A stretch of 64,000 bases of DNA, taken from the NCBI GenBank assembly GCA_947625655.1, contig CANQPD010000010.1, positions 1 through 64,000 of the forward strand, read 5' to 3'. Each line of letters opens with the position of its first letter. The first letter of the stretch is position 1. The translations under genes were made by a program, and so were the position numbers. The notes beneath the pieces are model-generated. The model was not told where the DNA came from and made no database searches. It saw nothing but the letters and a program-made list of their open reading frames with translations. Below are positions 28,803 to 56,162 of the stretch, piece by piece. The DNA comes from an uncultured Dysosmobacter sp. (GTDB lineage: Bacteria; Bacillota; Clostridia; Oscillospirales; Oscillospiraceae).

Positions 28803-29514
28803 GATCATTTACGACCTGCTGCCGCTGTACCACGACGGCGTGTGCTCGGAGGCCAGCCGCCGGGCGGTGGAGGAACATTTGCAGGGTTGTGAAGCCTGCC
28901 GGAAGGCCCTGGCGGACATGGATGCGCCCCTGCCGGAGGCGGAAAAAACCGCCGCCGATGATGCGGCGGCGGTGCAAAAGATCTCCCGGGAGTGGCGGGG
29001 GAGCAAGCGGAGGGCCTGGCTCAAGGGGGCCGCGATCGCCGTGCTCGTGTGCGCGCTGATCCTGGGCGGGTGGCATCTGCTGACAGGCGTCTACTGTGTG
29101 CCTGTGGATACGGACGGCATAGAGATCACGGCGCTGAGCCGCCTGGAGGACGGCCGGGTGATGTTCCATCTGCGGGTAACGGATGACAAGGACCTGCGGC
29201 GGGTGAGCTATGAGTACGACGGCGCGGGGAACCTGCACGTCGTGCCTCTGCGGCCTGTGCTGACCGTCAGCCGCAGGGCTGACAAGGGACTGTGGGACAG
29301 CGACTATATCACAGACTTGGCGGAACACAATGTGTGGAACGTAAAATATGGCGACGGCAAGGAGGCCACAAAAATCTATCTGGGCCGGGGAGAGGACGCC
29401 ATCCTCCTCTGGGAGGAGGGCATGGAACTGCCCGCCGCCAGCGCCGTCGATGAAGCACATTGGGGCTATGAGCCAGGAAGCGCGGAGTACTGGGCGCTGC
29501 GGGAGGAGAACTGA
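28792..29514 (+). CDS. Anti-sigma factor with zinc-finger (zf-HC2) domain
   Basis: 240 aa. The N-terminal cytoplasmic ZAS domain has the HxxxCxxC motif ('EEHLQGCEACRKAL') that binds zinc and clamps the sigma factor. A single membrane helix (about 84-102, 'GAAIAVLVCALILGGWHLL') leads to an extracellular domain of about 140 aa that I do not recognise, probably the sensor. Gene overlap with the upstream sigma factor supports the pairing. Confidence 0.88.
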   Translation: MEHEIIYDLLPLYHDGVCSEASRRAVEEHLQGCEACRKALADMDAPLPEAEKTAADDAAAVQKISREWRGSKRRAWLKGAAIAVLVCALILGGWHLLTGVYCVPVDTDGIEITALSRLEDGRVMFHLRVTDDKDLRRVSYEYDGAGNLHVVPLRPVLTVSRRADKGLWDSDYITDLAEHNVWNVKYGDGKEATKIYLGRGEDAILLWEEGMELPAASAVDEAHWGYEPGSAEYWALREEN

Positions 29515-29592
29515 CGCACGCCGCCCCATGCCCCGCCGCCACGGAAGCAGGGCCCGGCGCCGTATTGGCCCTTGCGGAAGGCTTGACGGGAC

Positions 29593-29614
29593 GGGCCGAT
29601 GTGGGCATCGGCCC
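29593..29614. repeat. Dispersed palindrome, copy 1
   Basis: GGGCCGATG, loop TGGG, CATCGGCCC, followed by CTACA. A related copy lies at 51335-51356 with a compensatory pair change. Confidence 0.7.
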
Positions 29615-29624
29615 CTACAAAAGC

Positions 29625-29660
29625 AAGGCCCGCCGGGGACATCCCCGGCGGGCCTTCTTT
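29625..29660. terminator. Bidirectional terminator, anti-sigma / folA
   Basis: A 15-bp stem AAGGCCCGCCGGGGA with its complement (29625-29639 / 29642-29656), then CTTTT. Confidence 0.88.
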
Positions 29661-29671
29661 TGTACACTATA

Positions 29672-30169
29672 TTAAATCTTTTTATTAATATAATCGATAA
29701 AACGGTAGGTAAGCCCATTCTCCGTCACTGGCTCGCCGGTATACTCGATCTCCCAGCCCGGCAGCTTGTCCAGATTGGGGAAATAGGTGTCGGACTCCTC
29801 CACCTGGGTCTCCACCCGGGTGAGATAGACCCGCCGGCACCGGCTCAACAGCATGGCGTACACGCTGCCGCCGCCGATGATCCACAGCTTGTCGGGGTCC
29901 TCGCCCTCCACCAGCTTCAGGGCCTCGTCGGCGCTGAGGGCCACCTCCGCCCCCTCCCGGGCGAAGCCGGTGTTGTGGGTGATGACGATGTTCCGCCGCT
30001 TGGGCAGGGGCTTTCCGCCGGGGAAGGACTCCAGCGTCTTGCGGCCCATGATGACGGTGCCGCCTATGGTCATGGAGCGGAAGCGCTTCATATCCGTGGG
30101 CAGGGAGAACAGCAGGTCCCCGTCCCGGCCGATGGCCCAGTTCTGATCGACAACAACGATGGCATTCAT
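29672..30169 (-). CDS. folA: Dihydrofolate reductase
   Basis: 165 aa. 'MNAIVVVDQNWAIGRDGDLLF', 'LPTDMKRFRSMTIGG', 'VIMGRKTLESFPGGKPLP' and 'LWIIGGGSVYAML' are the standard DHFR motifs, with the catalytic acidic residue in 'PTDMKRF'. It regenerates tetrahydrofolate consumed by ThyA, whose gene ends 13 bases upstream in the same operon. Start at 30169 after AAGGAGAG. Confidence 0.97.
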   Translation of the reverse strand: MNAIVVVDQNWAIGRDGDLLFSLPTDMKRFRSMTIGGTVIMGRKTLESFPGGKPLPKRRNIVITHNTGFAREGAEVALSADEALKLVEGEDPDKLWIIGGGSVYAMLLSRCRRVYLTRVETQVEESDTYFPNLDKLPGWEIEYTGEPVTENGLTYRFIDYINKKI

Positions 30170-46008: not shown

Positions 46009-46018
46009 AGCGAAAAAT

Positions 46019-46237
46019 GAGATAGAGGCGCGGATGCGATGGACCCACGGGAGCCGGCGGGCTGTGAGCGTGGGAAGGGCAAGTCCGCCGAACTTTTCTC
46101 CCGGGCGCGGGGGGAGGGTGGGGCCGCGGGAAATACCCGCGGGACTGTCCGCGGTGAGAGCCGCGGGTGCGCTATCTGCCAGGTGTGCCGCGGGACTGCG
46201 GCTGTCGTTCGGTAGAGGCGTGCCTCTACCGTTTTTT
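46019..46237 (+). promoter_or_regulatory. Lysine riboswitch (L box) with terminator
   Basis: The aptamer spans about 46019-46178. P1 is AGATAG (46020-46025) with CTATCT (46172-46177). The conserved 'GAGGCGCGG' start, the 'GGAGCCGGCGGGCTGTGAGCG' type P2 segment (46050-46070), 'GTCCGCCGAA' and 'CGGGACTGTCC' match the lysine riboswitch consensus I know from lysC/dapA leaders. The expression platform ends in a terminator GGTAGAGGC-GT-GCCTCTACC plus T-run (46211-46237). High lysine should terminate transcription before dapA. Confidence 0.9.
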
Positions 46238-49015: not shown

Positions 49016-49966
49016 ATGCTGCTGCTGGATTTCATCAACGTTGGCAATGGAGATTCTGCCCTGATCCGGGAAGTGGAGAACGGTGTGCAGACGTTTGCCA
49101 TGCTGGTGGACTGCGGGCATGACAATCTGATCCGGGACGACCACTCTGCCGAGCTGGACCCCCGGTCCCAGCGCATCTACGCCGGGGATTTTTTGAAAAA
49201 GCAGGGCGTCACCCATCTGGACATGCTGCTGCTGACCCATTTTCACCGGGATCATATCGGCGGATTGGGCCGGGTGCTGGACGCGGTGACAGTGGACAAG
49301 CTGGTGTGTACCTATATTCCACCAGCGGACAGCGGCGGCCTGGAGCCGGACGGCGACAACGGCCTGCCCAGGGCGGCCCGGAACGTGCTGCGGTGCGTGG
49401 ATATGTACGCCCGCATGCTGCGGGAGCACCCGGGGCGCGTCCGGGAATTCGTGGAGTTGCCCGGAGACCGGCAGGAATTTTACCAGCTGACGCCGGAGCT
49501 TTCCATGGACGTGATCTGCGGGGAGCCGGTGCTGTATCCCCGGCAGAAGGCAGTCTACGACGCGGCCTTCCGAGGCGAGCGGAACCGCTATGAGCTGATG
49601 CAGTGGGGCAAGTGCATGAACGTCTCCAGCCTGCGCCAGCGCCTGCACTACCACGGCAAGGAGATCGTCCTGGGCGGCGACGCCTACGCCGTGGTGTGGA
49701 ACAACGACATGCTGACCCCCTGCGACATTTTGAAGGTGCCCCACCACGCGTCGCTGTCCTCCACCACCCGGAAGCTGCTGGAGGGCCTGCGGCCCAAGAC
49801 GGCAGTGGTCAGCGTGGCGGCCCGGCGGCCCGACGAGCGGCCCCACCCCTACATCATCTCCCTGATCCGGGAGTACACCGAGGACCTCCACTTTACAGAC
49901 GCAGTGGACATCCCCGGTTTGGTAGAGCCGGTGTTCCACGAGTCGGTGCATCTTGAAGTTGAATGA
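49016..49966 (+). CDS. Metallo-beta-lactamase fold hydrolase (ComEC-C like)
   Basis: 316 aa, soluble. The metal motif 'LLLTHFHRDHIGGLGRVLD' is intact, with 'DCGHDNLIRDD' and later 'VPHHASLSSTTRKLLEGLRPKTAVVSV' as in the ComEC C-terminal nuclease-like domain. It may be a nuclease or phosphodiesterase; the substrate is unknown. ATG at 49016 is preferred over 49010 because GGGGG is seven bases upstream. Single gene ending in a bidirectional terminator. Confidence 0.85.
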   Translation: MLLLDFINVGNGDSALIREVENGVQTFAMLVDCGHDNLIRDDHSAELDPRSQRIYAGDFLKKQGVTHLDMLLLTHFHRDHIGGLGRVLDAVTVDKLVCTYIPPADSGGLEPDGDNGLPRAARNVLRCVDMYARMLREHPGRVREFVELPGDRQEFYQLTPELSMDVICGEPVLYPRQKAVYDAAFRGERNRYELMQWGKCMNVSSLRQRLHYHGKEIVLGGDAYAVVWNNDMLTPCDILKVPHHASLSSTTRKLLEGLRPKTAVVSVAARRPDERPHPYIISLIREYTEDLHFTDAVDIPGLVEPVFHESVHLEVE

Positions 49967-49968
49967 GC

Positions 49969-50004
49969 AAAAAATTGCCCGGCCAGATGGCCGGGCAATT
50001 TTTT
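49969..50004. terminator. Bidirectional terminator, MBL gene / iolG
   Basis: A 16-bp perfect stem ending in A- and T-runs on both sides, loop AGAT. Marks the 3' end of the iol operon. Confidence 0.92.
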
Positions 50005-50012
50005 GTAGGATC

Positions 50013-51050
50013 TTACTTGTACATCTCGGGCTTTTCCATGGTCTCCACTTTCAGGAACTGGGAGGTGCCGCGGGAGGCGTTCAGGGCGTCGCCGGCGACG
50101 CAGGCCACATAGCCGTCCCAGGCGGAGGGGCCGGTGAGCTTGCCGGCGTGGACGGACTCCACCCACTTGCAGAACTCGATGTCGTAGGCCTCGATGAAGC
50201 GCTCCTTCCAGTCGGTCATGATGGGCATGGACTCGGCGGGGTTCAGGCTGTCCCAGCCCTGGGGACGGGAGCGGCGGACCACGGCGTAGGGATCGGGCAG
50301 CTTGACGGTGCCGTTCTCGCAGACCACCTCGCACTGGATGTCATAGCCGTAGCCATCGGCCACCTGGACCTCCACGTCGATGAAGCAGCCCTTCTTGGTG
50401 CGCATCAGCATGACCTGGGGGTTGTCATAGCCCTTGTTGGAATTGGCGGACTGGCGGACCTTGACGCACTGCACGTCCTCGTACTCGTCGTCCAGCAGCC
50501 AGCGGCAGATGTCCAGCTCGTGGATGGCCACGTTGGTCACGCCGTTCTCGGTCTTGAAGCCCGGGCCCTGGGAGACGTTGCGGTGGCAGGCCTTGATGAC
50601 CAGGGGTGCGCCGATCTCGCCGGAGTCGATGATGCGCTTCATCTCGGCATAGCCGCGGTCATAGTGGCGCATGAAGCCCACCTGCACCAGACGCTTGCCG
50701 ATCTCCACCTCGCGGTTGATGATCTCCTCGCAGTCCTTGGCGTTCTGGCTCAGGGGCTTCTCGCAGAAGCACCACTTCTCCTCGGCCAGGGTCTTCATGA
50801 CGTAGTCATGATGGGTGGGATCGATGGAGGTGATGACCACGGCCTCGACCTCGGGGTCCTTGATCATGCCGTCGCAGTCGTTGCCGTAGGACTTGATGCC
50901 GTACTTGGCGGCGGTGTCGTCAGCGGCGGCGGCCACATAGTCGGAGACGGCCACGACGGTAGCGCCGGGGACAGTCTCAATGATGCGGCGGCAGTGATCC
51001 TTGCCGATAGCGCCGCAGCCGATGATACCAATTTTCAGAACCTGATCCAT
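50013..51050 (-). CDS. iolG: Inositol 2-dehydrogenase (Gfo/Idh/MocA family)
   Basis: 345 aa. Rossmann 'KIGIIGCGAIGKDHCRR', the catalytic Lys in 'CEKPLSQ', and 'VAIHELDICRWLLDDEYEDV' are typical. Within an iol operon it should oxidise myo-inositol to scyllo-inosose with NAD+. It is the last gene of the operon, after the small zinc-ribbon gene. A short AT-rich tandem repeat (TTAGGAAT-like, about 51075-51100) lies between. Confidence 0.9.
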   Translation of the reverse strand: MDQVLKIGIIGCGAIGKDHCRRIIETVPGATVVAVSDYVAAAADDTAAKYGIKSYGNDCDGMIKDPEVEAVVITSIDPTHHDYVMKTLAEEKWCFCEKPLSQNAKDCEEIINREVEIGKRLVQVGFMRHYDRGYAEMKRIIDSGEIGAPLVIKACHRNVSQGPGFKTENGVTNVAIHELDICRWLLDDEYEDVQCVKVRQSANSNKGYDNPQVMLMRTKKGCFIDVEVQVADGYGYDIQCEVVCENGTVKLPDPYAVVRRSRPQGWDSLNPAESMPIMTDWKERFIEAYDIEFCKWVESVHAGKLTGPSAWDGYVACVAGDALNASRGTSQFLKVETMEKPEMYK

Positions 51051-51102
51051 GTTGATTACCTTCCTTTACTTTTATTAATTAGGAATTAGGATTTAGGAAT
51101 TT

Positions 51103-51312
51103 TTAATAAGTGAGAATGATCTTTCTGCACCTGGGGCAGCGGGAGGCGGGGATGTAGGGAGATTGCATGAGATTGTCCGCATCGCAGAGCCCCTCCGCAC
51201 TTTTCACCCACTGCGGAGGGCAGCATTTTGCGGCCTGATCCAGCCAATAAATACCATGGGAGCTTTGCAGCGCGCCGTTTTCCATCTCAGCGCCGCAGTA
51301 CGGGCAATCCAT
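51103..51312 (-). CDS. Small zinc-ribbon protein (DUF6487/PF20097-like)
   Basis: 69 aa. Begins 'MDCPYCGAEMENGALQSSHG' and ends 'RCPRCRKIILTY', two CPxC pairs likely to bind zinc, as in the PF20097 family. GGAGGTG lies seven bases before the ATG at 51312. It sits inside the iol operon between iolD and iolG; any link to inositol use is unproven. Confidence 0.82.
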   Translation of the reverse strand: MDCPYCGAEMENGALQSSHGIYWLDQAAKCCPPQWVKSAEGLCDADNLMQSPYIPASRCPRCRKIILTY

Positions 51313-51334
51313 AACCGCACCTCCTCGCACCGGC

Positions 51335-51356
51335 GGGGCGATGTAGGCATCGCCCC
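51335..51356. repeat. Dispersed palindrome, copy 2
   Basis: GGGGCGATG, loop TAGG, CATCGCCCC, then CTAC. Compared with the copy at 29593, one stem pair is changed on both sides (C-G to G-C). Confidence 0.7.
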
Positions 51357-51373
51357 CTACGGGTGTCCCTCCC

Positions 51374-51583
51374 AGGCCCAGGCCGTGCCTGGGCCTAAGG
51401 AAAGGGGCTAGGGGAAACCAAGGGTTTCCCCAGTTCTTTCGCCAGCGGCGAAAGAAGGAATTTCAATCATTTTCGGCAGGACATGCGCCTGCCGAAAATT
51501 CCACGACCCAGCCGCCTTGGGCGGCGTCCCCCAGTGACCGATGTCACTGGGGAGGGGGGATCTAAAGGGGGGACGAAGTCCCC
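51374..51583. repeat. Six-hairpin structured element, copy A
   Basis: In + order: H0 51374-51396; linker AGGAAAGGGGCT; H1 GGGGAAACC/GGTTTCCCC (51411-51431); H2 TTCTTTCGCC/GGCGAAAGAA (51434-51456); H3 ATTTTCGGCAGG and complement (51469-51499); linker ATTCC-AC-GACCCA; H4 GCCGCC/GGCGGC (51511-51525); H5 CCCCAGTGAC/GTCACTGGGG (51529-51552, loop CGAT); and a last hairpin GGGGAC/GTCCCC at 51569-51583. It lies just after the iolD stop. Copy B is at 54427-54633. Confidence 0.85.
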
Positions 51584-51586
51584 TCT

Positions 51587-53515
51587 TTAATATTTCCGCG
51601 CGTCCTTCTCGTGGGCCAGATGGTCCTTATAGGCCTCGATGTTCTCCTTGCGCTCGGAGACCTCGGTGTCGCCCACGCGCCACCAGGAGCCGTAGCCGTC
51701 GGTCATGGTCTTGGGCAGGACCTTGATGTCGAACAGGACGGGGCGGTCCTTGACCTTCTTGGCGTCCTCAAAGGCGGCCGCCAGCTCTTCCATGGTGCGG
51801 ATGGAGTAGCTCTTGCAGCCGTAGCCCTCCGCCACCTTGGCGTAGTCGATGTTCAGGAAGTCGCCGAACAGGCCGTCCTTATTGCGGTAGCGCAGCTCGG
51901 TGCACAGCGTCAGGTTGCCGTGGCCCACCTGCAGGTTGTTGATGCAGCCGAAGGAGGCGTTGTCGAACAGGCAGACGTTGATCTTCTTGTGCTCCATAAC
52001 GGCGGTTACCAGCTCGCCGTGGAGCATGTTGAAGCTGCCGTCGCCGCACATGGCGTAGACCTCCCGCTTGTCGCCGATGGCCAGCTTCACGCCCAGGGCG
52101 CCGGCGATCTCATAGCCCATGGTGGAGTAGCCGTACTCCATGTTGTAGCAGTCGATGCCAGTGGGGCGCCACATGCGCTGCATGTCGCCGGGCAGGGAGC
52201 CGGCGGCGCCGATGGCCACGTCGCCCTCGTTCATCATGGCGTTGATGGCGCCCAGAACGGTGGTCTGGCACAGGCCGGCGTCCAGGTCCTTGGCGAACCG
52301 CTTGGCGGAATCGGCGTTGGCGTCGTTGATGATGGGCTTCCAGGACTTCTTGTCCTCGAAGACGATGTGGTCCAGGCGCTCCAGTTCCTTGGCCCACTTC
52401 TCCCGGGCGGTCTCGACCTCACCCTTGTAGGGGGCCTTGTAGCCGTCCAGCTTGGCAAGCAGACGGGGCAGGGCGTCCTTGGCGTCGGCCACCACGGGGA
52501 TGGCCTCCATCTTCAGGGCCTGGAACTCGGAGACGTTGATGTTGACGAACTTGCAGGTATCCTTGAACAGCCACTTGGAGGAGGTGGTGAAGTCGGTGTA
52601 GCGGGTGCCGACGCCGATGACCAGATCCGCCTTCTTGGCGATGTCGTTGGCGGCGGAGCAGCCGGTGACGCCCAGGCCGCCCAGGTTCAGGGGATGGGTC
52701 CACTCGATGGCGCTCTTGCCCGCCTGGGTCTCGCCGAAGGGGATGCCGGTGGCCTCGGCAAAGGCGCGGAACTCGGCGTGGGCCTCGGAGTAGCGGACGC
52801 CGCCGCCGCAGACCAGCATGGGGCGCTTGGCCTTCTTGATGGCCTCCGCGGCGTCGTTCAGCGCGGCCTCGGTGGCGGGGCGGCGCTCCAGGCGCCACAC
52901 GCGCTTGGCGAAGAAGCTGACGGGGTAGTCATAGGCCTCGCCCTCCACGTCCTGGGGCATGGCGATGCAGACGGCGCCGGTGTTGGCGGGATCGGTCAGC
53001 ACCCGGAAGGCGGAAATCATAGCGCTCATCAGCTGCTCGGGGCGGACGATGCGGTCCCAGTAGCGGCAGACGGCCTTGAAGGCGTCGTTGGTGGAGATGG
53101 ACAGGTTGTTGGTCTGCTCCACCTGCTGCAGCACGGGGTCGGGCTGGCGGCAGGCGTACACGTCGCCGGGCAGCACCAGCAGGGGGATGTTATTGGCGGT
53201 GGCGGTGCCGCAGGCGGTGACCATGTTGGCCGCGCCGGGGCCCACGGAAGAGGTGGCGACGCAGATCTGCTTGCGCTTCATCTGCTTGGCGAAGGCCACG
53301 GCGGCCTGGGCCATGCCCTGCTCATTCTGGCCGTGCCAGACCTCCAGATGCTTGGCCTCCTGGGTCAGCGCCTGGCCAAAGCCCACCACGTTGCCGTGGC
53401 CGGGGATGATGAACACGCCGCGGACGAAGCGGTTCTGGACGCCGTCCACCTCGATGAACTGGTTCTCCAGGAACCGGACCAGGGCCTGGGCCATGGTCAA
53501 ACGAACGGTTTTCAT
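51587..53515 (-). CDS. iolD: 3D-(3,5/4)-trihydroxycyclohexane-1,2-dione acylhydrolase
   Basis: 642 aa, thiamine-diphosphate enzyme. 'FIIPGHGNVVGFGQAL', 'HGQNEQGMAQAAVAFAKQM', 'TSSVGPGAANMVTA' in the N-terminal domain (catalytic Glu) and the ThDP/Mg motif 'MCGDGSFNMLHGEL...NASFG' at the C-terminus. It opens the ring of the inositol-derived dione to 5-deoxyglucuronate. Fifteen bases downstream of iolB in the operon. Confidence 0.95.
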   Translation of the reverse strand: MKTVRLTMAQALVRFLENQFIEVDGVQNRFVRGVFIIPGHGNVVGFGQALTQEAKHLEVWHGQNEQGMAQAAVAFAKQMKRKQICVATSSVGPGAANMVTACGTATANNIPLLVLPGDVYACRQPDPVLQQVEQTNNLSISTNDAFKAVCRYWDRIVRPEQLMSAMISAFRVLTDPANTGAVCIAMPQDVEGEAYDYPVSFFAKRVWRLERRPATEAALNDAAEAIKKAKRPMLVCGGGVRYSEAHAEFRAFAEATGIPFGETQAGKSAIEWTHPLNLGGLGVTGCSAANDIAKKADLVIGVGTRYTDFTTSSKWLFKDTCKFVNINVSEFQALKMEAIPVVADAKDALPRLLAKLDGYKAPYKGEVETAREKWAKELERLDHIVFEDKKSWKPIINDANADSAKRFAKDLDAGLCQTTVLGAINAMMNEGDVAIGAAGSLPGDMQRMWRPTGIDCYNMEYGYSTMGYEIAGALGVKLAIGDKREVYAMCGDGSFNMLHGELVTAVMEHKKINVCLFDNASFGCINNLQVGHGNLTLCTELRYRNKDGLFGDFLNIDYAKVAEGYGCKSYSIRTMEELAAAFEDAKKVKDRPVLFDIKVLPKTMTDGYGSWWRVGDTEVSERKENIEAYKDHLAHEKDARKY

Positions 53516-53530
53516 GGGGATTACCTCCTA

Positions 53531-54334
53531 TTAGTGATTGGGATAGATGTGGTCGTTGGCGTCGGCCTTCCACAGCCAGGCGTGCTCCTCGTCGTCGATG
53601 CGGGTCTTGTCCCAGGGATCGCCGTCCAGGTGCCGGATGCCCCAGGCATAGCACATGGCGTAGCCGGGCGCGGCGGTCTGGGAGTGGAAGCCGTGGTTGA
53701 TGACGGCCAGGCCGTTGTGGCCGGTCTTGAAGATCTCACCGTTGGCAAAGCCCGCGCCGAAGCCGTCGGGATAGTCGAAGCGGTAGAAGTAGACCTCCGG
53801 CTGGGGATGGTGGTGGGGGGGATAGGAGGACCACTTGCCGGGATGGTTCAGCACCTCGCCCAGGACCATGTTGGAGAAGGGGGCGTTGTCCAGGTCGAAG
53901 AAGGTCTTGATCTCCCGCTCCATGCAGCCCATCAGCTCGCCCTGGCTGCCCTTGTACTCGGTCTGCACGGTGTCAGGGGTGTACATGACGGCCTCATAGG
54001 GCTTTTCGTTGATGGTCTTCTGGATATACAGCTCACTGTGGGCATGGGCGGTCAGGGTGATCCTGGTGCCCTTGCCGGCCAGCAGACAGTAGGCCTCGTG
54101 GTGGAAGCAGTCGGGGCGGTCGGCCTCGACCTTTTTGCCATCCCACTCATAGGTGACCTTGCCGGAGAACAGCAGCACCGCGATCTCCTTTTCGGCCTCC
54201 TCGAAGGTGAAGACGTCGCCGTCCTCCATCACCAGCAGGCCCACGTCCATCTGGGTGCCCATATCGTCCACAGCGGCGTCGATGTAGGCGTTGTAGCCCT
54301 GCTTCAGTTCGGCGTTCTTATTGAAATAGCTCAT
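53531..54334 (-). CDS. iolB: 5-deoxy-glucuronate isomerase
   Basis: 267 aa, bicupin. 'EIAVLLFSGKVTYEWDGKKV', 'RPDCFHHEAYCLL' and 'SSYPPHHHPQPEVYFYRFDYPDGFG' match IolB, which makes 2-deoxy-5-keto-gluconate. The start at 54334 follows AGGAGATG; upstream in-frame sequence belongs to a purine-rich spacer. Copy B of the structured element lies upstream, between it and iolE. Confidence 0.95.
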   Translation of the reverse strand: MSYFNKNAELKQGYNAYIDAAVDDMGTQMDVGLLVMEDGDVFTFEEAEKEIAVLLFSGKVTYEWDGKKVEADRPDCFHHEAYCLLAGKGTRITLTAHAHSELYIQKTINEKPYEAVMYTPDTVQTEYKGSQGELMGCMEREIKTFFDLDNAPFSNMVLGEVLNHPGKWSSYPPHHHPQPEVYFYRFDYPDGFGAGFANGEIFKTGHNGLAVINHGFHSQTAAPGYAMCYAWGIRHLDGDPWDKTRIDDEEHAWLWKADANDHIYPNH

Positions 54335-54426
54335 CGGAAACATCTCCTGATTTAAAATTAAAGAGTGAAGATTGGAGAGCGGAGAGTGAAGATAAAAGAT
54401 AAGGGATAAGAGATATCCCATATCCC

Positions 54427-54633
54427 GCGCCCGCAGGCGCAGAGGAAAGGGGCTGGGGGAAACCTGCGGTTTCCCCAGTTGATTTGCCATCGGCAAATCA
54501 AGGAAATGAAATTATTTTCGCCGGGGCGTGTACCTGGCGAAAATTCCTTGACCCAGCCGCCTTGGGCGGCGTTCACCAGTGACCGATGTCACTGGTGGTG
54601 GGGGATCCTCAAGGGGGAGCCTGCTCCCCCTTG
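54427..54633. repeat. Six-hairpin structured element, copy B
   Basis: In + order: H0 GCGCC/GGCGC (54427-54440); linker AGGAAAGGGGCT; H1 GGGGAAACC/GGTTTCCCC (54456-54476); H2 TTGATTTGCC/GGCAAATCAA (54479-54501); H3 ATTTTCGCCGGG/CCTGGCGAAAAT (54514-54544); linker ATTCC-TT-GACCCA; H4 identical (54556-54570); H5 CACCAGTGAC/GTCACTGGTG (54574-54597, loop CGAT); last hairpin 54610-54633. Stems differ from copy A by paired changes. Confidence 0.85.
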
Positions 54634-54642
54634 AAGCCTGCA

Positions 54643-55545
54643 TCAAAGCCCCGTGTGCTCCTTGATATACTTGCGGCCCTTCATGGCGTACTCCAGGGGG
54701 TTGGCCTTGGCGGGATCCTGCTCGGCCTCCACCAGCAGCCAGCCCTGGTAGCCGGCATCGGACAGGACCTTGAACACGGGATCGAAGTCCACGTCGCCAT
54801 CGCCGGGGACGGTGAAGGCGCCGTTGCGGACGGACTGCAGGAAGCTCCAGTTGTTCTTGCGGGCCTCTTCCACCACGGGCAGGCGCATGTCCTTCAGATG
54901 GACGTGGCCCACGCGGTCCACATACTTCTTCAGCATGGTCAGGGGGTCCTCGCCGGCGAAGGTGAAATGGCCGGTGTCGAAGCAAAGGAACACATAGCGG
55001 GGATCGGTATTGCTCATCATGCGGTCCGTCTCCTCGCTGGTCTGGACCACGGTGCCCATGTGATGGTGGAAGCACAGCTTGAAGCCGCGGTCGGCGGCGA
55101 TCTTGCCCAGGGTGTTCAGGCCGGCGCAGAAGCGGTCCCACTCCTCATCGTTCATGACGTGCTTGTGGCTGCCGGTGAGGACGGGGGTGTCCATCTGGCC
55201 CTGGATGGACCAGCTCTGCTCGCTGACGTTGATGCGGTTGGCGCCCACGGCGGCCAGGAAGTCCAGGTTGGCGGTGAAGTCGGCGATCTCCTCCTCCATG
55301 GGACGGGTCAGGATGAAGGAAGAATACCAGCGGCTGGCGATCCGCATGCCCCGCAGGTCCAGAGCCTTTTTCAGCTCGGCGGGATCCGTGGGATACTTGT
55401 TGCCGATCTCGCAGCCGGTGAAGCCGGCCAGCGCCATCTCGCTGACGATCTGCTGGAAGGTGTTCTCGCCGCCCAGTTCTGGCATATCGTCATTGCACCA
55501 GCCGATGGGAGCAATGCCCAGGGATACATTTTTGGGATCAAACAT
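54643..55545 (-). CDS. iolE: Myo-inosose-2 dehydratase
   Basis: 300 aa, xylose-isomerase-like TIM barrel. 'GIAPIGWCNDDMPELGGENTFQQI', 'LCFHHHMGTVVQTSEE', 'LCFDTGHFTFAGEDP' and 'HVHLKDMR' match IolE. It dehydrates scyllo-inosose to the diketone used by IolD. First gene of the operon (iolE-iolB-iolD-zinc ribbon-iolG), divergent from the ABC transporter. Start after AAGGAGGAC. Confidence 0.93.
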   Translation of the reverse strand: MFDPKNVSLGIAPIGWCNDDMPELGGENTFQQIVSEMALAGFTGCEIGNKYPTDPAELKKALDLRGMRIASRWYSSFILTRPMEEEIADFTANLDFLAAVGANRINVSEQSWSIQGQMDTPVLTGSHKHVMNDEEWDRFCAGLNTLGKIAADRGFKLCFHHHMGTVVQTSEETDRMMSNTDPRYVFLCFDTGHFTFAGEDPLTMLKKYVDRVGHVHLKDMRLPVVEEARKNNWSFLQSVRNGAFTVPGDGDVDFDPVFKVLSDAGYQGWLLVEAEQDPAKANPLEYAMKGRKYIKEHTGL

Positions 55546-55660
55546 TGGAAATGTCCTCCTTAAAAAAGTTGACTTGTTGTGGGTGCCGCGGCCCGCGGCG
55601 GATTTCCGTGTGCGTTCACAGAGAGGCTCGCAGCAAAACGCGGGCGCAATCGTTTTCGCT

Positions 55661-55711
55661 CCTTATAAAAAGTACCATCGTTCCGGCCAAAAATCAACGG
55701 TTTTTATAAGG
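55661..55711 (-). promoter_or_regulatory. iol operon promoter within an 11-bp inverted repeat
   Basis: CCTTATAAAAA (55661-55671) and TTTTTATAAGG (55701-55711) are perfect complements 29 bases apart. On the minus strand TTGATT (55692-55697), 17 bases, TACTTT (55669-55674) forms a promoter that overlaps the left arm. Confidence 0.6.
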
Positions 55712-55970
55712 GAATCTTCATTTTTTCCAATTTAGCCAAAGGGCTTTCCCTATTTTTTATATATGTGACAGAAAGTCCGCCGGGCCGCGCCGCGGACGAA
55801 AAAGGCCCGGCGCCGCGGAAACGGAGGGCGGCCTTTTCAGATGGAGGGCGTTTTTGCCCGGATGCGCGCCCCAGCGGGAAAGACCGCCGCGCGGCACAGA
55901 CAAAAATATATATTATGCACAAAAAAACTGAAGATAATTCTTGGAAATCATACAGAATTTTTCAAACTTA

Positions 55971-56000
55971 TTGACGGGGACTTCCTCTTTGTGCTAGGAT
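55971..56000 (+). promoter_or_regulatory. Promoter of the sugar ABC operon
   Basis: TTGACG (55971-55976), 18 bases, TAGGAT (55995-56000). Confidence 0.6.
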
Positions 56001-56050
56001 AAAGTCGCATTCGCCGGGGAATGACTAATCGATTTCTTTCAGGAACTTTG

Positions 56051-56098
56051 AAAAAGGGGATATCCCCTTTTTTCCACGTCCCAGAGGGACGCGGAAAA
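56051..56098 (+). promoter_or_regulatory. Leader with overlapping hairpins
   Basis: A perfect 22-bp palindrome (56051-56072; AAAAAGGGGAT and complement) ends in T's like a terminator. The same T-run begins a second stem, TTTTCC-A-CGTCCC with GGGACG-C-GGAAAA (about 56070-56098). The two folds compete for bases, as in an attenuator. Confidence 0.5.
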
Positions 56099-56162
56099 AG
56101 CAGGATTCTGGCGGAAGGAGATCAGCTTTCCCGGAATTTAGTCGAAAAGGAGAAAAGAAGAA

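Follow-up and report, generated by a model that had tools for sequence, protein, structure and literature searches.

Stop-codon-anchored mosaic repeats of palindromic hairpin modules at gene junctions in Oscillibacter-group gut bacteria

Introduction

Several families of short palindromic repeats are known from the intergenic DNA of bacteria. REP sequences and their composite forms, the BIMEs, are often found between the genes of an operon. They consist of intergenic palindromic hairpins that are grouped in mosaics and reach many copies per genome (PMC8266576). ERIC and RU-1 elements are likewise intergenic and are co-transcribed with both neighbouring genes, and the orientation of an ERIC copy decides its effect on the upstream mRNA; ERIC measures 127 bp, is bounded by terminal inverted repeats and has TA at its termini (PMC2229807). 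In Neisseria, Correia/NEMIS elements form transcribed hairpins that adjoin genes and may serve as RNase III substrates (PMC2229807, PMC2649163); these elements have a target duplication as well as terminal inverted repeats of 24 bp (PMC2229807). Here we describe a family of hairpin repeats that we traced from two copies, A and B, in the iol operon of an uncultured Dysosmobacter sp. (assembly GCA_947625655.1). Both copies lie in a window of 64,000 nucleotides, positions 1 to 64,000 of contig CANQPD010000010.1, forward strand.

In kind the family is close to BIME and ERIC, yet it lacks defining features of each. Like BIMEs, its copies form a multi-copy intergenic mosaic whose modules reassort. 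Unlike REP/BIME, each copy holds six different hairpins in a set order over about 200 bp and is anchored at a stop codon; the GTAG motif by which REP sequences are recognized (PMC8266576) is not conserved beside a hairpin in our 42-copy alignment, and the RAYT/TnpA-REP association of REP sequences is not reproduced here, as detailed below. ERIC differs in length and termini, since the present element spans about 198 positions and its ends differ, a distinction drawn from description and not from sequence comparison. No clear terminal repeats or target duplication of the Correia type were seen in the copies, and the only likeness to the terminal inverted repeats of miniature inverted-repeat transposable elements is that both ends share, by eye, a short AAAGGGG-like stretch. 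Judged by titles and the openings of abstracts, the papers listed by our literature searches include no description of this repeat family, although an earlier one may exist. We class it among the bacterial interspersed mosaic elements, as one that is anchored at stop codons, keeps a set orientation and has cassette-like hairpins.

Results

A repeat family traced from two copies in the iol operon

Copies A and B (Table 1) form a 193-nt direct repeat with 79% identity at a spacing of 3045 nt. Both fold strongly on either strand when compared with 200 shuffles (plus strand, z −8.9 for the copy A stretch and −7.0 for the copy B stretch; minus strand, z −8.9 and −7.8), and no shuffle folded as well in any of the four strand and copy tests. 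A first-pass annotation had described two hairpin-bearing copies with hairpins H0–H5 and a last stem in the same order, kept unpaired linkers, and stems that differ by paired substitutions. The two copies are real and lie where that annotation placed them, and the paired substitutions between them in H2, H3 and H5 were confirmed in the sequence. The order stands for H1–H6; H0 is not part of the family, and it differs between the copies because it is neighbouring sequence. The linkers are present in both copies, but they are not invariant across the family in the 42-copy alignment.

An alignment of 42 full-length copies (A1) was used to build a covariance model (R1) of about 198 positions, and homologues were found far beyond the two copies. 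The source genome holds 18 copies, the two in the window included, and R1 matches occur in 22 of the 31 genomes of the genus; by this model the six richest genomes (G007, G017, G023, G024, G027 and G028) hold 21–33 copies each. BLAST with copy B gave 23 pieces in the source genome and matches in 23 of the 31 genomes. The suggestion that these might be a structured repeat family is thus borne out, both by the many homologues and by strong covariation in the alignment. The next separate R1 match in the window is weak (17.9 bits, 29497–29725, minus strand).

Across the wider family, 35 of 120 genomes matched at E 1e-8, with scores of at least 100 bits confined to the source genome and two others. 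The H3 loop was present in six of the eight distant matches that were viewed (of nine), with the neighbouring sequence changed. An exact scan of the named genomes for the H3 pattern returned at least 116 stretches, and the matches listed include Oscillibacter, Dysosmobacter, Lawsonibacter, one Ruminiclostridium, Oscillospiraceae, Clostridia, Clostridiales and Eubacteriales. Named records of O. valericigenes An890 and An411 are among those with the H3 motif. Five IMG/VR contigs (L243–L247) also carry the H3 pattern and may be bacterial flanks.

Copies sit behind stop codons at the junctions of co-directional genes

For the tests below we took the 99 strongest of 221 model matches as copies (100 of 111 loci scanned). 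The remaining matches were mostly reverse-strand or partial matches at the same places, and a match in L097 at 65.8 bits was left unused. Calling neighbours by the length of open reading frames (ORFs) alone was unreliable and was replaced by stop-anchored frames and a codon-usage score.

Both copies had been described as starting directly behind an iol stop codon (of iolD and iolE), and this is correct with the refinement that H6 is the hairpin at the stop when the element is followed along the iol reading direction. Most copies share the arrangement: a frame of at least 80 codons that reads toward the element ends near H6 in 87 of 99 copies, and in 71 of these 87 the stop falls within 10 nt of the model end. 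In the mirrored test at H1 a frame was found in 56 of 99 copies, and only 7 of the 56 ended within 10 nt. A read-through transcript would therefore carry the minus strand of the element. By the codon-usage score the downstream gene is co-directional in 89 of 99 copies, and its start lies within 150 nt in 54 of the 83 copies with a good codon score. The element is intercistronic.

NCBIfam scans of the source-genome copies named the upstream genes iolE, iolD, metG, argR, leuC, pheS, rplA, tpiA, serC, yidD and radC, and downstream genes that include iolB, recN, pheT, 2,3-bisphosphoglycerate-independent mutase (gpmI), phosphoglycerate dehydrogenase, yidC, uvrB and feoB. The junctions thus filled include iolE|iolB, pheS|pheT, tpiA|gpmI, yidD|yidC and radC|uvrB. 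The members of the last four pairs passed their own cut-offs, as did iolE, metG, leuC, rplA, serC and recN; argR, iolB and phosphoglycerate dehydrogenase fell below the curated cut-off, as did iolD, of which the C-terminal part only was scanned. Three of 16 upstream and three of 14 downstream proteins gave no hit at 1e-10; the scans left out the upstream protein of L017 and the downstream proteins of L006, L009 and L011. By eye, a further copy appears to lie between groES and groEL in L031.

Stems covary while hairpins reassort as blocks

In H1–H5 of the 42 copies, 98.2% of cells are paired, compared with 88.9% after shuffling. Cells changed on both sides number 165 against 51 in the shuffled alignments (0 of 500 reach 165; slid controls gave 9–28). 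Less marked is the excess in further pair types, of which there are 38 compared with 34 after shuffling (19 of 500 reach 38). The covariation that was first noticed between copies A and B, and taken as a mark of selection on the fold, is therefore real; the observations that follow leave it with little weight as a sign of selection on an RNA.

Hairpin variants reassort almost freely. Within genomes, 18 of 21 pairs of module types show no association at p < 0.05, and the associated pairs are H1 with the H3 loop (p 0.000), the H3 stem with the H3 loop, and the H3 loop with H4; the test skips module types that could not be read (e.g., 39 of 99 copies are without an H1 type and 14 of 99 without an H2 type). 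In alignments of orthologous copies, whole hairpins are replaced while others are untouched. Orthologous copies show 517 double against 176 single stem changes (66 non-independent pairs), and in the eight ortholog pairs with flanks at least 93% identical the counts are 44 and 18.

The loops of H2, readable in 53 of 99 copies, occur in both orientations, with 128 reverse-complement pairs against 39.7 in the null (0 of 2000 shuffles reach 128) alongside 129 same-orientation pairs. The loops of H3 are never inverted (0 of 94), the H6 loop is flipped once in 49 (L007), and L008 and L049, which are orthologous copies, carry the H5 loop in opposite orientations. Template switching between the arms of an inverted repeat is known to homogenise the arms and invert the spacer (PMC8604942); it was shown there in yeast coding genes, and here we propose it for a bacterial repeat family. 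The reassortment, the near-equal identity of orthologs and paralogs (given below), the excess of double over single changes and the loop inversion argue that the covariation is mostly a DNA-level record, and the paired changes seem closer to events in palindromic DNA than to the marks of a selected, folded RNA.

Wobble pairs are mostly unlike those of an RNA helix

On the plus strand, H1–H5 of the 42 copies contain 39 G.T and 13 A.C cells; one H3 pair (Table 1) supplies 24 of the 39 G.T, and without it the counts are 15 G.T and 12 A.C. On the minus strand, the one that would be co-transcribed, the same stems would hold 13 G.U and 39 A.C. Signal recognition particle (SRP) RNA from the same genomes, used as a control, has 73 G.U vs 4 A.C among 654 cells, and the element differs from it by Fisher's test (p 9e-6 without the H3 pair, 0.0025 with it). 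The control draws on 22 of 23 loci, as fixed 100-base stretches with 20 distinct sequences (a locus at a contig start was left out), and replaced a tRNA control that was unusable, with four mis-framed tRNAs in the loci. An alignment-free count over distinct hairpins gave 49 G.T vs 12 A.C, of which 21 G.T fall in H3 and 17 in H6.

Outside the one H3 pair, G.U far above A.C, as expected of a selected RNA helix, was thus seen on neither strand, and at most of the variable positions both strands depart from the pattern of an RNA helix. A G-U pair in copy B had been read as a hint that the plus strand is the functional one. That hint holds at the H3 pair and at one pair of an H6 variant, so that some plus-strand feature, either RNA or single-stranded DNA, may exist; elsewhere there is no G.U excess.

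Copies come and go between species

At the iolE|iolB junction, seven genomes were viewed. The junction is filled in G000 (the source genome), G004, G017 and G023, with a shorter element in G017 and G023, and holds only a short spacer in G008, G027 and G028. At the end of iolD, viewed in 11 of 15 loci, the element is present in G000, G007, G017, G023 and G028, G008 has a lone H6-like hairpin, G027 has an H6-like hairpin followed by other hairpins, and G001, G004, G006 and G010 are empty. Since G004 and G028 show opposite states at the two places, the copies come and go independently. Empty junctions therefore exist, with spacers too diverged for a target-site duplication to be read. Mean identity is 0.719 between orthologous copies, 0.715 between paralogs within a genome and 0.673 for other pairs.

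Other hairpin modules are associated with some copies. L004, L011 and L015 (between H6 and H5) and L007 and L068 (in the H1 arm) harbour a second hairpin repeat, about 105 bp long, within the element, and an extra module lies within the H3 loop of L017 (1501–1723) and L038 (1461–1687), in opposite orientations. In L079, L086, L088, L092, L016, L071 and L082 further repeated hairpin modules come after H6 and ahead of the remaining hairpins, so that the H6–H5 linker looks like an insertion hotspot.

Features of the two loci

Coordinates in the window are collected in Table 1. The start of iolB was read from the sequence as the ATG at 54334, while the listed ORF reaches 54496. A low-complexity AAGATAAAAGATAAGGG tract adjoins copy B at 54365–54420, and similar tracts stand beside L002, L003, L004 and L005. 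A minus-strand promoter-like match (9/12) lies within copy B at 54540–54511, near chance level (3 found vs 1.5 expected). Between copy A and iolG there is a small ORF (51107–51312, minus strand) with zinc-ribbon-like CPxC pairs; similar ORFs were seen by eye in G004, G006, G017 and G023 and are missing in G007 and G028.

At gathering cut-offs, Rfam reported for the whole window a lysine riboswitch only (46015–46182, plus strand, 73.4 bits), away from both copies and upstream of an ORF that we named dapA-like by eye. Relaxed searches gave seven weak matches to copy A, with P4 first by E-value (E 0.002) at 20.8 bits where the cut-off is 37, and ten further loci gave no match at E 0.1.

Table 1 Coordinates of the two element copies, their hairpins and the adjoining iol genes in the 64,000-nt window
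Feature	Position	Strand	Remark
Copy A, whole element	51395..51593	+	R1 214 bits; between iolD and small ORF/iolG
H0 of copy A	51374..51396		Neighbouring hairpin, outside the family; other copies without it
H1 of copy A	51411..51431		Read from sequence
H2 of copy A	51434..51456		Variable stem; loop in both orientations across the family
H3 of copy A, loop ACATGCG	51469..51499		Inverted form in 0/94 family loops
H4 of copy A	51511..51525		Read from sequence
H5 of copy A	51529..51552		Read from sequence
H6 of copy A	51563..51589		Contains iolD stop codon 51587-51589
Copy B, whole element	54440..54638	+	R1 220 bits; between iolE and iolB
H0 of copy B	54427..54440		Neighbouring hairpin module, found beside some other copies too
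H1 of copy B	54456..54476		Read from sequence
H2 of copy B	54479..54501		Read from sequence
H3 of copy B, loop GCGTGTA	54514..54544		Contains the pair that is G.T in 24/42 and A-T in 17/42 copies
H4 of copy B	54556..54570		Read from sequence
H5 of copy B	54574..54597		Read from sequence
H6 of copy B	54609..54634		8 nt from iolE stop codon (54643-54645)
iolD	51587..53515	-	Upstream of copy A (sense direction); TIGR04377 below whole-protein cut-off, C-terminal part only scanned
iolE	54643..55545	-	Upstream of copy B (sense direction); TIGR04379 over cut-off
iolB	53531..54334	-	Downstream of copy B; TIGR04378 below cut-off

Discussion

On balance, we consider the elements probably to be non-coding, non-autonomous mosaic repeats of about 200 bp, built of six palindromic hairpin modules and placed in a set orientation at operon junctions, with H6 at the upstream stop codon. 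Copies would spread by insertion directly behind stop codons, or be retained there, by means of some enzyme. Exchange of hairpin blocks between copies would then diversify them, and template switching within each palindrome would keep the arms complementary while allowing the loops to flip; under block exchange and template switching together, stem covariation would mostly record DNA events. The H3 loop keeps a single orientation and may be a recognition site, likely one read by a protein. We take the plus-strand wobbles and the one-way loops together to suggest strand-specific recognition, with single-stranded or cruciform DNA as the simplest case. Co-transcribed on the minus strand, the hairpins could act, by analogy with ERIC, as a boundary behind the upstream cistron that alters its decay or processing and does not stop transcription.

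Several observations weigh against this interpretation. We found no mobilising enzyme, no clean target-site duplication and no autonomous parent. The loops of H1 show no inversion excess (p 0.15), the pairs of the SRP control come from an RNAalifold consensus, which favours G.U, and wobble confined to the plus strand, at one H3 pair and one pair of an H6 variant, hints at a strand-specific constraint. The number of mirrored frames at H1 is high because GC-rich DNA here has long chance frames, so the claim on position rests on the tight offset and the named genes; moreover, frames were sought only toward H6, and 12 of 99 copies lack one of 80 codons. Finally, for 70 of 99 copies the H6-side flank recurs beside a copy in another genome, so that many positions are old or reused, and in 49 of 66 pairs orthologs are closer than matched non-orthologs drawn from the two genomes concerned (0.681). 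The shared flanks and closer orthologs also fit long retention under selection.

The alternative that survives best is a cis-acting mRNA element in which selection on the minus-strand RNA keeps the stems, the element protects or processes the upstream cistron, and exchange at the DNA level is secondary. We regard it as a minor but serious possibility. It would account for the set orientation at stop codons, the operon junctions, the shared positions, the strong minus-strand folding and the strong covariation. However, the minus-strand wobble counts are the reverse of those of an RNA helix and of the SRP control, the H2 loops flip, and a common H6 variant carries a standing A.C mismatch on this strand.

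A rather doubtful variant of the mobile-DNA interpretation would make the family a new mobile-DNA class, with insertion tied to transcription or to gene ends: the element might enter behind stop codons in the direction of reading, with a strand-specific H3 hairpin, and cassette swaps and loop flips might generate RNA-like covariation without selection on RNA.

More doubtful still is mobilisation in trans by a Y1 (HUH) single-strand transposase, either a RAYT, as for REP, or a TnpA of the IS200/IS605 type. Y1 transposases read one strand of DNA hairpins, and the plus-strand-only wobbles and the one-way H3 loop would suit such strand-specific reading. PF01797 matches occur in 11 of the 31 genomes, including all six with at least 21 copies (two of these matches are weak), and genomes with such a match have more copies than the rest (mean 18.5 vs 3.2, p 1.8e-4). 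A control gene, iolD, associates similarly (mean 14.4 vs 3.9, p 0.0016), so genome relatedness may explain this link. Twelve transposase loci carried neither the element nor an exact H3, H5-arm or H6-core motif, and the missing GTAG beside the hairpins also argues against such an enzyme.

Among the candidates of this kind, a RAYT was rejected as the mobiliser. A RAYT-like ORF does exist in the source genome, but RAYT presence does not follow copy number: homologues occur in 5 of 31 genomes, the source ORF counted, which average 12.6 copies against 7.9 in the others (p 0.11), and none was found in five of the six copy-richest genomes. This single putative RAYT ORF (L255:1444–1953, minus strand, in G000:C3) encodes 169 aa; it immediately follows uvrB and lies about 2 kb away from copy L004. 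Its assignment draws on sequence motifs and a weak PF01797 match. IS200/IS605-like Y1 matches were seen in G007, G023, G027, G021, G004 and G028 (L248–L253), and by eye a TnpB-like ORF adjoins the one in G007.

Two readings appear highly improbable. The first, raised in the first-pass annotation, is a functional plus-strand RNA antisense to the upstream gene, here iol. It could draw on the two plus-strand-only wobbles, on the nearly constant orientation of the H3, H5 and H6 loops, and on terminator-like plus-strand hits at H1 in the two copies and at H6 in copy A, from a simple terminator scan that made 10 calls against 5.8 expected. Outside the one H3 pair, though, G.T and A.C are nearly balanced on this strand, the downstream neighbour reads the other strand in most copies, and the sole plus-strand promoter-like site in 49900–56100 lies at 55971–56000, far from both copies. 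With the frames ending at H6 it is the minus strand that would be co-transcribed, and the antisense proposal is not supported.

The second is that the elements are intrinsic terminators, or clusters of them, at gene ends, as has been proposed for hairpin clusters near stop codons (PMC8355165); H6 does lie directly behind stop codons and the minus strand has a terminator-like site shortly past copy B (54419–54403), but the copies stand between co-directional core genes, pheS|pheT and yidD|yidC among them, with the next start often within 150 nt, the simple scan made no minus-strand terminator call within copy A or B, and at most a short TTT follows H6, so that a strong operon-internal terminator, also suggested at first, is unlikely. 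H6 as a genome-wide terminator hairpin was ruled out separately: of ten exact H6 cores in the source genome, nine lie within copies.

The combination of strong stem covariation with DNA-level marks (loop inversion, block exchange and wobble balance) is a warning for covariation-based RNA discovery in repeat-rich intergenic DNA, and the family offers a natural system in which the G.U/A.C balance can be tested as a simple filter. For the bacteria themselves, a family that occupies core-operon junctions such as pheS|pheT, tpiA|gpmI and yidD|yidC in gut bacteria may set the relative expression of the neighbouring genes.

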